NCBI GenBank assembly: GCA_005773635.1
Contig: SXHN01000111.1
Location: 1 to 64,000 of the forward strand
Reading direction: 5' to 3'
Origin: Actinomycetota bacterium
GTDB lineage: Bacteria > Actinomycetota > Acidimicrobiia > IMCC26256 > PALSA-610
DNA: 64,000 nt
Part shown: positions 14,769 through 19,606 of the stretch, piece by piece
Position numbering within the stretch: position 1 is the first letter of the stretch
Layout: every line of letters starts with the position of its first letter
Made by a program: the position numbers and the translations under genes
Notes under the pieces: generated by a model
Database searches by the model: none
Seen by the model: the letters and a program-made list of their open reading frames with translations, nothing else
Told to the model about the DNA's origin: nothing

Positions 14769-17621
14769 TCATCGGCCGACGCGAGGCACCCGCGTGACCC
14801 CGTCAAAGTTGAGTTGTTGCCATTGTTTTCCGGCGTCTTGGCTTGTGAACATCCGATTACCGCCGTCGTGGGTGTTGACAATCACGTAGCCGCTGCCTTG
14901 GGAGGCGAATGATTCCTCGGCGATATCACCAACACCGATGTAAAGAGTCGGTGTCCACGACCAACGACCGTTGCGGCGCGTGCCACGGAGGAGATGTTGC
15001 TCGCCGGGCACGAACAATGCATCCGACGAGGCGGCGGTAAGGCGGTGGAGATAGTTCACACCAACGGGGGGCGTTGCGACCTCCGCAAACGAGTCGCCTC
15101 CTTTGAACGATTCAACGAGAATGGCAGGCGCAGTTTCGGCACCGAATGGAGGGTTGCACGCTGCGACAAGATGACGAGTCGTTAATGGCGCAAGCGACGG
15201 CACGCCACCTTGTTTCAAACACGGAGGGTCCCAGAGCACCCATTGGCCATTGTGTTTTCTCGCTCCATTGACCACACCGCGTTGAATTTGCGTGACCCAA
15301 ATTTCGCCGTCGCGACCAATGATGTCAATCGAAGGTCTCGGACCGCCGCCGATGCCGCGCACCAAGGATACCGAGGCCCGTTGCCAGACAATCGTGTCGC
15401 GAACCCGTGAGCTATGGATCGTGAACGGAGATCCATCTTGCTCATCAATCACGACATGAAGTACCCCGTCGGCCAACGCCATCGCTGCGATCGAGCGGGC
15501 GTCGTTCGCACCGGGAAGCGGCACAGAGCTCCACGTGATTCCTCCGTCCGCCGTGATTGAAATCTTCGTCCGCGACGCGGCGTATCCGGTCTTTCCGTCA
15601 GCGAACGCGATCGTTGGACTGAATGGGAAGTCGCCCCGATCCTGCAACACGACGGCAGGCGGCGGTGTCAATTCCGTCCATGTCAATCCACCGTCGGTGG
15701 TGCCGAGCAGAGCCGTCGTACAAACTGCATCGACACAGTCGCCCCGATCCAGTACCCAGCCACGCTTCGTATTCACGAACGACGCCGAACTTGGAACGAA
15801 CTCACGGTGCGCGATCCCGTCGCCTTGATTGTTCAATCGCGGGTCAACGACCAAGAATTCACTTTGCCCGGACTCATCACCGCTCATTATCCATAACGAC
15901 GACTGAGTTGCAACCACTCGATGAAAGCCGCCGGGGTATCTCGTCACGGCCTTGAGGCGTTGGCGCACTTTCGAAAATGAGCCGAATGATTTTGTTTTCA
16001 CGTCGAACTGGGCCAGTTCGTTCGGGAATTGTGTGCTGGACGGATAGGTCACGACAAGTTGATCATTCACGATCCCCCATAGCCCACGCCCGCTCGCAGC
16101 AGTAGCGGCAACGGGTGTCACAAACGGATCTATAACCGAAGACGTTGCTCGCACATCACCGTTCAGGTCGGAGAGTTCAAACGAGGCCCCGTCGGCCCGT
16201 GTGGCCCACAAACTGTCAGCGGCTCCAGGTGCCTTTTGAATCGACAAAATGATGCTTTGCCCCTGGATAGTTCGGTCTTCGGTGAGCGATGGACGGTCAA
16301 GTGCAACTACTCGCAACACCGAAGCGCTATCAACGCCAAGGATCGCAACCCGTGAATCGTCAAGACCCACGAAGAGTCGTTCACCGACAAGCGTCGCGCC
16401 GTGCGCGCCACCCGGCAGCTCGATCGAACGAATCACTTTTCCGGTATCTGAATCGATGCGAACCACTGTCTGGCTTCCATTTCCCACCAGCCAGACGCCG
16501 CTACGGCCCGCCACGATTGGACAGGCGCACGTTGCTCCGCGCAACTGCGTAGTGAACACCACTTCATTCGTAGTGGTATCTATTTTCGATACCGTGGTGA
16601 CCGGCACAGCTCCATCGCCGCCACCTGAGATCCACACTCCTCCATCGCGATCGGTCGCAATACCGATAACCGATTCCTGGTTTACATCGATCGTCGCGAA
16701 TAGCTCACCGGTTTGCGCCGATCGTCGTTCAACGACAACTTGCGCCTCTCCCTCCACTTGGCGAGCAAGGAATACTTCGTGGCCGTCATAGGCGATGTCG
16801 CTCGCCCAGTCGCCTTTCGCGGAGGTAAGCACAACCGGAATCTGCATTTCCGGGTTCGCGACCCAATCCGCGATCAACGTTGCGTAGCGTTGCGAGCCCT
16901 CTTTGGTGAGGTGGTATCCGTCTTTCGCGAAGAAGCGTTCCTTTGGCAACCAATCCTTCGCACCAGCTCCATAGTCGAGCACCGTCGCATTGGGATACTT
17001 CCGCAATACCTGCTCCAGCACCAAGTTGTTCGGTGCTTCCCAAGTTCGTTCCACGAGGACAGTCAAAAAGGCAACCCGGCGACGCGTACCGATAACCTCC
17101 ATGATTCGGTTCACATCTTCAGATTTCAATGGCCCGTTCGTGCCGCAATGCACCACGACTTTTGACCCCAGGCGACCCTTCTGCTTCAGACCAGCCAATG
17201 TTTGTATGCAGTTTTCGACTGAATTACCAACCTCGGCTTCAATGGCAAGAGAGCCTTGAGCCAGCGCTGCCACTTCGGCCTTCACCGCGGGTTCGGCACC
17301 CAGCATCACGCTGTCTCCAACCATCGACACTGCCGCCGCCGGCAATAGACCGGCGACGGTCGACGAAGTTCTCGCACCGGCCGTCGATGACGTCGGGTTC
17401 GCGTTCTGCACTCCATCGCCTCGACGGTCCGCGACGGCTCCTACGACCACCGCGACCATGATCGCGGCTGTGCCCACACCACAGGCACGTTGTATTCGCC
17501 GTGACCGATGTCGAAGCGCGGCACTCCGCACCACCTCGTAGTCGTCGGCATAACTCGTGGAAGTGCGCTCGTCTAACGCACGCAACGCCGCGCGAATTTC
17601 TTGACGATCGTCGTCACTCAT
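14769..17621 (-). CDS. Membrane-anchored SGNH-hydrolase/beta-propeller protein paired with an ECF sigma factor
   Basis: A 950-residue protein. Residues 1-46 are charged and cytoplasmic, and about 47-64 form one membrane helix. A Thr/Ser linker leads to an SGNH domain with GDS (Ser104), CGTNG (Asn162) and DGYH (Asp234, His237). The remaining 700 residues look like one or more beta-propellers: VWISGGGDG and VWLVGNG strands, then Asp-box loops TTDGGLTWTE, TADGGITWSS and SQDAGKQWQQ. The ATG overlaps the sigma gene by eight bases after GGAGGAAC, so translation is coupled. That is where an anti-sigma factor normally lies, so the short cytoplasmic segment may bind the sigma factor. No zinc-finger anti-sigma motif is visible, and this role is inference. 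Confidence 0.8.
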   Translation of the reverse strand: MSDDDRQEIRAALRALDERTSTSYADDYEVVRSAALRHRSRRIQRACGVGTAAIMVAVVVGAVADRRGDGVQNANPTSSTAGARTSSTVAGLLPAAAVSMVGDSVMLGAEPAVKAEVAALAQGSLAIEAEVGNSVENCIQTLAGLKQKGRLGSKVVVHCGTNGPLKSEDVNRIMEVIGTRRRVAFLTVLVERTWEAPNNLVLEQVLRKYPNATVLDYGAGAKDWLPKERFFAKDGYHLTKEGSQRYATLIADWVANPEMQIPVVLTSAKGDWASDIAYDGHEVFLARQVEGEAQVVVERRSAQTGELFATIDVNQESVIGIATDRDGGVWISGGGDGAVPVTTVSKIDTTTNEVVFTTQLRGATCACPIVAGRSGVWLVGNGSQTVVRIDSDTGKVIRSIELPGGAHGATLVGERLFVGLDDSRVAILGVDSASVLRVVALDRPSLTEDRTIQGQSIILSIQKAPGAADSLWATRADGASFELSDLNGDVRATSSVIDPFVTPVAATAASGRGLWGIVNDQLVVTYPSSTQFPNELAQFDVKTKSFGSFSKVRQRLKAVTRYPGGFHRVVATQSSLWIMSGDESGQSEFLVVDPRLNNQGDGIAHREFVPSSASFVNTKRGWVLDRGDCVDAVCTTALLGTTDGGLTWTELTPPPAVVLQDRGDFPFSPTIAFADGKTGYAASRTKISITADGGITWSSVPLPGANDARSIAAMALADGVLHVVIDEQDGSPFTIHSSRVRDTIVWQRASVSLVRGIGGGPRPSIDIIGRDGEIWVTQIQRGVVNGARKHNGQWVLWDPPCLKQGGVPSLAPLTTRHLVAACNPPFGAETAPAILVESFKGGDSFAEVATPPVGVNYLHRLTAASSDALFVPGEQHLLRGTRRNGRWSWTPTLYIGVGDIAEESFASQGSGYVIVNTHDGGNRMFTSQDAGKQWQQLNFDGVTRVPRVGR

Positions 17622-18243
17622 CAGCTTGTTCCTCCAGCACTGCCCGCATGGCGCTCAACGCTCGCGAAGTGGTGCTCTTCACCGTTCCCGCGCTGCACCG
17701 CATCATCTTGGCGGTTTGTTCTGTACTCAGATCTTCAAAAAATCGCAATATGAGCACCATCCGATGACGAGGGGCTAAGCGAGCGATTGCTGCAGCAATT
17801 TCGTCGCGTTGCACAACCGTCAGATCGATCATGATGTCTGCGGGTGGCGGGATCTGCGTTTCTTGATATCGATCTGCGACCCGTTTGCGGCGCGCCTGCG
17901 AACGTAGGTCGTTCACAATCGCGACGCGCAGATAGGGCCAGAAATCGTCGACGCCACCGAGGCGCCACCTGCTCCAAACGCGGGCGATCGCGTCAGTTGC
18001 TATCTCGCGAGCATGAAAGTGATCGCGAGCCCCCACCAGCAGCGAGAACCGAACGGCCCGGTCGTAGTACGCGTGAAACAGCCGCTCGAAAACTTCATCG
18101 CGGGTGTTGCGGCGCGAGCGAGACTGGGTACCAGTGTTGGAAACGAGTTCCGCCACGTTGGATTCAGAAGCATCAAATACCCGCGCGCCGCGTCCGGATA
18201 CCGCACCAACCTCTGGTTGCGCCGTCACCATGTCGTCGTGCAC
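17614..18243 (-). CDS. ECF-type RNA polymerase sigma factor
   Basis: A 209-residue sigma-70 family protein. After a variable N-terminus of about 45 residues, region 2 runs from VFERLFHAYYDRAVRFSLLV to FWPYLRVAIVNDLRSQARR. Region 4 carries the helix-turn-helix around LSTEQTAKMMRCSAGTVKS. Regions 1 and 3 are absent, as in ECF factors. The GTG at 18243 is preferred over ATG at 18231 because GAGAGAGG lies just before it. A likely self-recognised promoter is at 18266-18292. The next gene overlaps by eight bases and encodes a large surface-exposed protein, so this sigma factor probably answers an envelope signal. Confidence 0.9.
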   Translation of the reverse strand: MHDDMVTAQPEVGAVSGRGARVFDASESNVAELVSNTGTQSRSRRNTRDEVFERLFHAYYDRAVRFSLLVGARDHFHAREIATDAIARVWSRWRLGGVDDFWPYLRVAIVNDLRSQARRKRVADRYQETQIPPPADIMIDLTVVQRDEIAAAIARLAPRHRMVLILRFFEDLSTEQTAKMMRCSAGTVKSTTSRALSAMRAVLEEQADE

Positions 18244-18265
18244 CTAGCCCCTCTCTCGCACCTGA

Positions 18266-18292
18266 GACGCACACCACTACACAAAGGTTGCC
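18266..18292 (-). promoter_or_regulatory. ECF-type promoter upstream of the sigma gene
   Basis: Read on the minus strand, GGCAACC (18292-18286) is followed after 16 bases by CGTC (18269-18266). This matches the usual actinobacterial ECF promoter layout, an AAC-containing -35 and a CGTC -10 about 16 bases apart. Transcription would begin about ten bases before the GAGAGAGG ribosome site of the sigma gene. The match suggests autoregulation, but it was read by eye and not tested. Confidence 0.6.
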
Positions 18293-18334: not shown

Positions 18335-19606
18335 ATGGCCCGCAAATTCCCAAAGTCGATGCGAGCCATGGCCTCTCGAGATTTCCGGGTCTTTCTGGCC
18401 GGGGGAATCGTCTCAAGTATCGGGTCGAATATGCAGATTGCGGCGCTGGCTTGGGTGGTGCAGGCACAAACTGGCTCGGCAATGAGAACTACTGCCATTG
18501 CCTTTATTGGGATTATCCCGCTATTACTGCTTGGTCCGACCGCGGGAGTGTTGGCCGATCGGCTGCCGCGCCGCAAGCTCCTTGTGGGTACCAACATCTT
18601 GAACGGATTCCAGGCGCTGGCCTTGTGGGGTGTCTGGGTGGGCGGTGCCGGCGACAGCTACTGGCTGTTATTCGCATTGTCGTTCTTCGGTGGCATCTTC
18701 ACAGCAATTCAAACACCAGCATGGCAGTCGTTGCCAGCCGAGCTTGTCGAACGCGATCACTTGCTCAACGCGATCACACTCAACAGTACGCAGTTCAACA
18801 TCGCCCGGGCGATTGGGCCGTTGGCGGCGGGAGTCGTAATCGAACAGTGGGGCGCGGGAGCTGCTTTCGGACTCAATGCGGCGAGCTATACCGCCGTAAT
18901 CGTCGCGTTATTAATGCTCGGTCCGGCCCCAACGGTGCACGCCCCTGCCGATGGGCTGACCAATTTTCAACGGTGGCGACTAGGGCTACAACACATTCTT
19001 GAACACCCGACCCTACGCCTCGTCATTGGAATCCACATGGTGTTTGCGCTCGTAATTCCTCCTGTGATCTATTTGATACCGAAACTGTCACAAGATGAAC
19101 TTCGCATCGGCGCTAGCAGCTACGGCGTGTTGCTCGGTGTCTTCGGTATTGGCAGCATCATCGCGGCGGTCACCTTGGGCAATAGTGAAGACCGAGTTCG
19201 TCGATCTCGCGCACTCGCGTTAGGCATCACGATGGCCGCAGTCTCGATGGCCGGCCTGGCATCTGCGCGCAGTTACGTCGCCGGACTGGCAGCAATGGTC
19301 ATGCTCGGAGCGGCGTACCTCATAGTTGTCTCGGTCGACCATGGGGCAATCCAGACCTTTACCGACGACCAATACCGCGGTCGAGTGACAAGCGTGTGGC
19401 TGATGACCTTTGGGCTTTGCATGCCGTGCGGTGTACTCGGTCAAGGCGCACTCACCGACGCAATCGGAGTGCGCACCGTGTTTACAATCGACGCCGCGAT
19501 CATGCTGATCATGCTGGGACTGCTCGGATTACGCCGGGTGCTGCACCGCCTCGACACCACCACCGCTATCGCCACCACCACCCCAACCGTGGTCGCGAAT
19601 TTGTAA
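18335..19606 (+). CDS. MFS transporter (EntS/MFS_3-like exporter)
   Basis: A 423-residue protein with about twelve hydrophobic helices. The loop between helices 2 and 3 carries the MFS signature GVLADRLPRRKLLV. The segment SLPAELVERDHLLNAITLNS is typical of the EntS/MFS_3 group that exports siderophores, drugs or macrolides. The N-terminus (ARKFPKSMRAMASRDFRVF) is basic, as expected for the cytoplasmic side. It is divergent from the ECF sigma operon and convergent with the ligase gene; its last codons lie inside the palindromic repeat at 19588. It resembles the MFS protein at 32898-34205. The substrate is unknown. Confidence 0.9.
   Translation: MARKFPKSMRAMASRDFRVFLAGGIVSSIGSNMQIAALAWVVQAQTGSAMRTTAIAFIGIIPLLLLGPTAGVLADRLPRRKLLVGTNILNGFQALALWGVWVGGAGDSYWLLFALSFFGGIFTAIQTPAWQSLPAELVERDHLLNAITLNSTQFNIARAIGPLAAGVVIEQWGAGAAFGLNAASYTAVIVALLMLGPAPTVHAPADGLTNFQRWRLGLQHILEHPTLRLVIGIHMVFALVIPPVIYLIPKLSQDELRIGASSYGVLLGVFGIGSIIAAVTLGNSEDRVRRSRALALGITMAAVSMAGLASARSYVAGLAAMVMLGAAYLIVVSVDHGAIQTFTDDQYRGRVTSVWLMTFGLCMPCGVLGQGALTDAIGVRTVFTIDAAIMLIMLGLLGLRRVLHRLDTTTAIATTTPTVVANL

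Follow-up and report, generated by a model that had tools for sequence, protein, structure and literature searches.

Single-pass membrane proteins that are encoded together with an ECF sigma factor have mostly proved, among those studied so far, to be anti-sigma factors. A class I anti-sigma gene is found near only about a third of ECF sigma factors (PMC7406223), and the control of those without a class I anti-sigma domain is largely open. One of the closest described systems is the autoregulated SigI/RsgI6 pair of Clostridium thermocellum. Its anti-sigma factor crosses the membrane once, binds sigma through its cytoplasmic N-terminus and has an outer domain derived from a glycan enzyme, a GH10 head that has very low activity yet binds its carbohydrates (PMC4711584). 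In Bacillus subtilis, the ECF sigma factor SigV is held by the single-pass anti-sigma factor RsiV, which senses at the cell wall, and the SigV regulon includes oatA, the gene of a peptidoglycan O-acetyltransferase (PMC4183432). The class II anti-sigma factor CnrY, of the CnrH system, has a cytoplasmic segment of fewer than 50 residues with two helices, followed by a single transmembrane helix (PMC7406223). Here we compare with these systems an ECF sigma gene and its overlapping partner gene, both on the minus strand of the 64,000-nucleotide stretch of DNA that we analysed (the window).

A SigE-like ECF sigma gene and its overlapping partner

The sigma gene (17614-18243) starts with GTG and encodes 209 residues. 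Its product matches region 4 in Pfam (Sigma70_r4_2, 3.2e-14; 52.7 bits, cut-off 25.7) and the sigma-70 superfamily model TIGR02937 (68.2 bits, cut-off 42.9), which places it among ECF factors, whereas region 2 has no separate Pfam match. The SigE family model TIGR02983 is the best-scoring NCBIfam entry (1.6e-32), but its 112.6 bits lie below the curated cut-off of 141.55; judged by its sequence, the protein is a relative of the SigE family outside the filed membership.

The partner gene (14769-17621) encodes a 950-residue single-pass membrane protein, a putative anti-sigma factor by its reading frame, hydropathy and position. As originally predicted, the first eight bases of the partner gene are also the last eight of the sigma gene, ATGAGTGA (17614-17621), and the same overlap recurs in G047, a second species of the same genus, and in G046, a genome of the same family. 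A GGAGG inside the sigma gene (17631-17635), about nine bases ahead of the partner start, is the likely ribosome-binding site of the partner. Hydropathy yields one transmembrane candidate, at about residues 46-65 (residues 47-65 being 17427-17483; best 19-residue hydropathy 2.26), and a second peak (residue 89, 1.67) corresponds to the start of the SGNH domain. Residues 1-46 (17484-17621) form a cytoplasmic, putative sigma-binding segment with a basic end, and the helix is followed by the SGNH domain, a seven-bladed-type propeller and a YCF48/BNR-type repeat region. Hydropathy and domain searches thus agree with the predicted short N-terminal end, single membrane helix and large outer part.

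Profile searches, including Pfam and NCBIfam, found no known anti-sigma domain model that reaches its cut-off on the partner, and Rfam and PHROGs searches returned nothing. With 46 residues and no Hx3Cx2C, the cytoplasmic segment differs from class I (ZAS) anti-sigma domains, which exceed 50 residues and carry this motif in many members. It also differs from RsgI, since the sigma factor is of the ECF rather than the SigI type and RsgI_N has no match. Its size fits that of the class II factors (below 50 residues), and the two helices predicted within it (residues 3-18 and 24-46) come from a low-confidence AlphaFold model of the full-length protein, built from two sequences (mean pLDDT 40.6).

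Upstream of the sigma gene lies an ECF-type promoter motif, GCAACC-N16-CGTCT(CA) (18265-18291, minus strand). GCAACC-N16/17-CGTCTCA stands just 5' of the sigma start in the window, G047 and G046, with a chance expectation of 0.12 within the window, and a looser form stands ahead of the sigma gene at 8 of 19 paralogous loci, where simple shuffles predict 0.83. Counted genome-wide, the exact motif is not enriched over reversed controls (5 versus 8 in the host, 6 versus 6 in G047, 8 versus 6 in G046), so no target beyond the operon can be named; the host and G047 have no convincing intergenic match except the sigma promoter itself, and the region upstream of the host's own AT3-SGNH gene has none. 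The motif upstream of the sigma gene in three genomes and its looser form at paralogues fit sigma autoregulation. A divergent MFS transporter gene adjoins the sigma gene (18335-19606, plus strand); it is kept in G047, where a ligase-like gene beyond it also matches the window, and is absent at the G046 locus. Elsewhere in the host (G000:C8), a second related sigma gene is overlapped by that of a 475-residue single-transmembrane partner with a head of no recognised type (L078:3754-5178, minus strand).

A partner family shared across the ECF clade

We sampled 32 non-redundant sigma genes related to that of the window, from the same order and class, and found a single-transmembrane partner gene at the sigma stop in all 32 loci. 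The partner overlaps the sigma gene in 31 of them, by 4-14 bp. Counted from the sigma stop, its start lies at -4 or -8 in 29 loci and at -11/-14 in two, and in the remaining locus it follows at +81; these exact counts should be read loosely, as start calling favoured ATG codons near -8. Of 330 further gene ends in these loci, 3 have such a reading frame at -4/-8.

The transmembrane helix of these partners begins about 34-68 residues in, and the segments ahead of it belong to one family, with a first helix bearing an LRxxL pattern and then a basic second part. In a leave-one-out test of the N-terminal profile, 24 of 26 segments score above all 200 shuffles of the same composition, and the window N-terminus, scored against a profile made without its own subfamily, exceeds all 1000 of its own. 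The G047 N-terminus does not stand out against the family profile (852 of 1000 shuffles reach its score), for which its longer start is the probable reason; it aligns with the window N-terminus at 5e-7. The window protein therefore has the single helix, the overlap at the sigma stop and the N-terminal segment that distinguish partners in this clade, and this context, which the control gene ends rarely share, supports the prediction that it occupies the anti-sigma position.

The heads of the partners vary, and include WD40/PD40 and YCF48 propellers, Ser/Thr/Pro-rich tails, and DUF4232, Gmad2, FtsX-type, neocarzinostatin-type and LCP domains. One distant relative (L171:2823-4190, minus strand; G355:C64) carries an LCP (LytR-CpsA-Psr) glycopolymer transferase head (3.2e-33), a second wall enzyme in the same partner position; another partner (L082:4115-5704, plus strand; G030) has a region like the FtsX extracellular domain in its outer part. 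The general layout of the window pair is ordinary for this ECF clade, and the combination of an OatA-type head with two propellers is rare.

An OatA-type SGNH domain and two propeller regions

The SGNH domain spans residues 98-256 (16854-17330). Among solved structures, its profile matches four distinct sequences only, 6wn9/6vjp (9.2e-12) and 5ufy and 5ug1 (about 1e-3), all recorded as acetyltransferases or acyltransferases. We take 6wn9/6vjp and 5ug1 to be OatA domains. 5ufy shows the catalytic domain of Streptococcus pneumoniae OatA (PMC5697884). The sequence blocks are GDSV (Ser104), VGN (Val131-Gly132-Asn133, Block II), GTNG (Asn162) and DGYH (Asp234/His237), and they contain the GDSV serine, the GTN asparagine, the DxxH motif and the Val/Ile-Gly/Ser of Block II that mark OatA-type domains (PMC5697884). 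In OatA, Block II reads (V/I)(G/S)(R/V) and its Val promotes transfer (PMC5697884); its third position is Asn in the window protein and Arg in G047 (Val-Gly-Arg). The predicted triad is therefore intact, but the domain is of the OatA type and not a plain esterase. A plain GDSL esterase was rejected on the structure matches, and as the blocks include the Val of Block II, the label esterase is too specific: the domain, being of the OatA type and probably captured from an AT3-SGNH acyltransferase, is as likely a transferase as an esterase. The window protein has no match to PF01757, the N-terminal AT3 domain of those enzymes, and a single transmembrane helix, and so is not itself an OatA/AT3-SGNH enzyme; the host's own AT3-SGNH protein has PF01757.

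In a tree of 57 rows, the SGNH domains of the window and G047 are sisters (100/99) and fall in a clade (99/97) with AT3-SGNH enzymes from their family, the host's own copy among them; their rows, L107 and L102, are clipped loci, hence their label SOLO. The simplest reading of this tree is that the domain was probably captured from an AT3-SGNH acyltransferase within the family. It is also the best-conserved part of the protein, at 55% compared with 33% and 28% in the two propellers. As far as the loci of SGNH proteins were read, only those of the window and G047 are partners of an ECF gene and only these have the domain ahead of a long C-terminal part, where many loci extend only 1.5 kb past the match and table hits without a fetched locus were judged by frame length alone. 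Other SGNH arrangements were also seen. In G386, a sigma pair with a partner of its own stands close to an AT3-SGNH gene. Reading frames of 200-330 residues, such as L034:5579-6562 (plus strand; G007:C28), encode an OatA-type SGNH domain alone, membrane-anchored or secreted, without AT3 and with no related sigma gene nearby. A 1383-residue open frame (L150:1773-5921, plus strand; G028:C3) has one predicted transmembrane helix and a C-terminal OatA-type SGNH domain, and is unlike AT3-SGNH enzymes.

The propeller blades predicted for the outer part were recovered in two regions. Propeller 1 (residues 262-600; 15822-16838) has a CxC (365/367) and a GGGDGxVPxTTVS motif that are conserved in the alignment with G047 and G046. 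Modelled alone as residues 259-603 from only two sequences (mean pLDDT 59, pTM 0.63), it retrieves YncE and G-beta propellers with Foldseek (best E 3.7e-11, YncE; TM 0.68). The second region (residues 607-945; 14787-15803) is a putative Asp-box propeller of the YCF48/BNR type, matching PF14870 at 1.1e-5 and 25.3 bits, just under the 27-bit gathering cut-off, and it resembles the heads of two other sigma partners, L173 (5e-16) and L077 in G046 (3e-10). In the former (L173:2365-4002, minus strand; G302:C42), a neocarzinostatin/enediyne-apoprotein-like domain (3.4e-12) precedes the propeller.

G047 encodes a full-length homologue with 37% identity, the eight-base overlap and the triad. Since these features are kept in a second species at such a distance, the arrangement is not due to chance, and the recurrence of the pair in a second genome led us to reject an assembly artefact. 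G046 has the sigma gene and a 416-residue partner with the same kind of N-terminus, the helix and propeller 1, without SGNH domain or propeller 2. Clear relatives of propeller 1 occur in 4 of 395 genomes of the class, all from one family, and four further genomes have only short, weak matches; a GTDB contig scan, which may omit the host's own records, found G047 only. An ECF gene precedes all three complete propeller-1 carriers, the fourth copy (G048) being cut by a contig end, and this part of the original prediction held. Separate modules of the large protein do occur without sigma factors, for example in a lipoprotein of G002. The head with SGNH domain and two propellers is rare and was seen in a single genus. 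As propeller 1 stands alone in G046 and heads like propeller 2 occur in L173 and L077, the giant protein appears as a composite of modules found singly on the same chassis, to which the SGNH domain was added.

Proposed mechanism and relation to known systems

We consider it fairly probable that the pair is an autoregulated ECF sigma factor and a membrane-bound anti-sigma factor whose outer part is a composite sensor. By analogy with class II factors like CnrY (PMC7406223), which its size and two predicted helices recall, the segment of residues 1-46 would tether the sigma factor to the membrane. The outer part would consist of a captured OatA-type SGNH acyltransferase domain, then two propeller regions for binding; the source enzymes would be the family's own AT3-SGNH proteins, which would O-acylate a surface or wall glycan. 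The head may bind such a glycan, or turn over its acyl groups, and the resulting conformational change or cleavage of the protein would free the sigma factor to transcribe at least its own operon, yielding more sensor and enzyme. Gene order, overlap, partner rule, N-terminal family, promoter, triad conservation and SGNH ancestry are the observed base from which we infer sigma binding, direction of control, enzymatic activity, signal and mode of release.

A more specific version, which we regard as possible but doubtful, is that the putative anti-sigma factor also works as an O-acyltransferase or esterase on a wall or surface glycan, and that the sigma factor is gated by whether the glycan, or the protein's own active site, is acylated. 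Several results speak against the favoured anti-sigma reading: no known anti-sigma domain model reaches its cut-off, the G047 N-terminus does not outscore its shuffles, the exact promoter motif is not enriched genome-wide, and the AT3 part, which supplies acyl groups in OatA, is missing. The missing AT3 part also fits a head that binds glycan without turnover, as in RsgI6, whose GH10 domain retains binding at very low activity (PMC4711584); the anti-sigma reading would otherwise stand. Such a pseudoenzyme appears unlikely, as the catalytic and oxyanion residues and the Block II Val are all kept in two species at 37% overall identity and the SGNH domain is the most conserved part, although binding alone might also conserve these residues. 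The two genes overlap, run in the same direction and follow a seemingly sigma-controlled promoter, which would also suit an envelope enzyme that is simply the co-transcribed target of the sigma factor, its N-terminus having no role in regulation. We find this improbable, since other partners share the N-terminal segment and helix despite mostly unrelated heads, and sigma binding would be expected to conserve a common cytoplasmic segment next to a common type of sigma factor. Sequence and context cannot separate positive from negative control, so the partner could instead recruit the sigma factor to the membrane or act as a co-activator required by it; general knowledge of the studied membrane partners, mostly anti-sigma factors, makes this very improbable.

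Should this more specific version, with an active enzyme as anti-sigma factor, be correct, the O-acylation pathway of the cell would be read out by an enzyme taken from it, and the anti-sigma chassis of this ECF clade would have received wall enzymes more than once, SGNH here and LCP in G355. Throughout the clade, the partners have a short N-terminus of one kind, on which different heads can be exchanged, cell-wall enzymes included; if heads sense the glycans on which their ancestors acted, the enzyme family would predict the signal. In the open-access papers searched, we found no anti-sigma factor with an SGNH head.

The window pair shares its overall plan with SigI/RsgI6 (PMC4711584) and differs in having a SigE-like ECF factor, a segment of about 46 residues and an OatA-type SGNH domain with two propellers, whereas SigI is only ECF-like, RsgI_N has about 165 residues and the head is GH10. 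Its likeness to CnrY (PMC7406223) lies in size and predicted helices, and CnrY has no enzyme head. The nearest tree relatives, the AT3-SGNH acyltransferases, share the SGNH blocks, GTN motif and Block II Val of OatA (PMC5697884), but they carry the SGNH domain at the C-terminus, whereas the window protein lacks the AT3 membrane domain and continues for about 690 residues of propellers. RsiV (PMC4183432) also differs, as it binds lysozyme and has DUF4163/DUF3298 outside. In the SigV system OatA is a product of the regulon, whereas in the window an OatA-type domain lies inside the putative anti-sigma protein itself, which suggests that the cell may have turned an old wall enzyme into a sensor.
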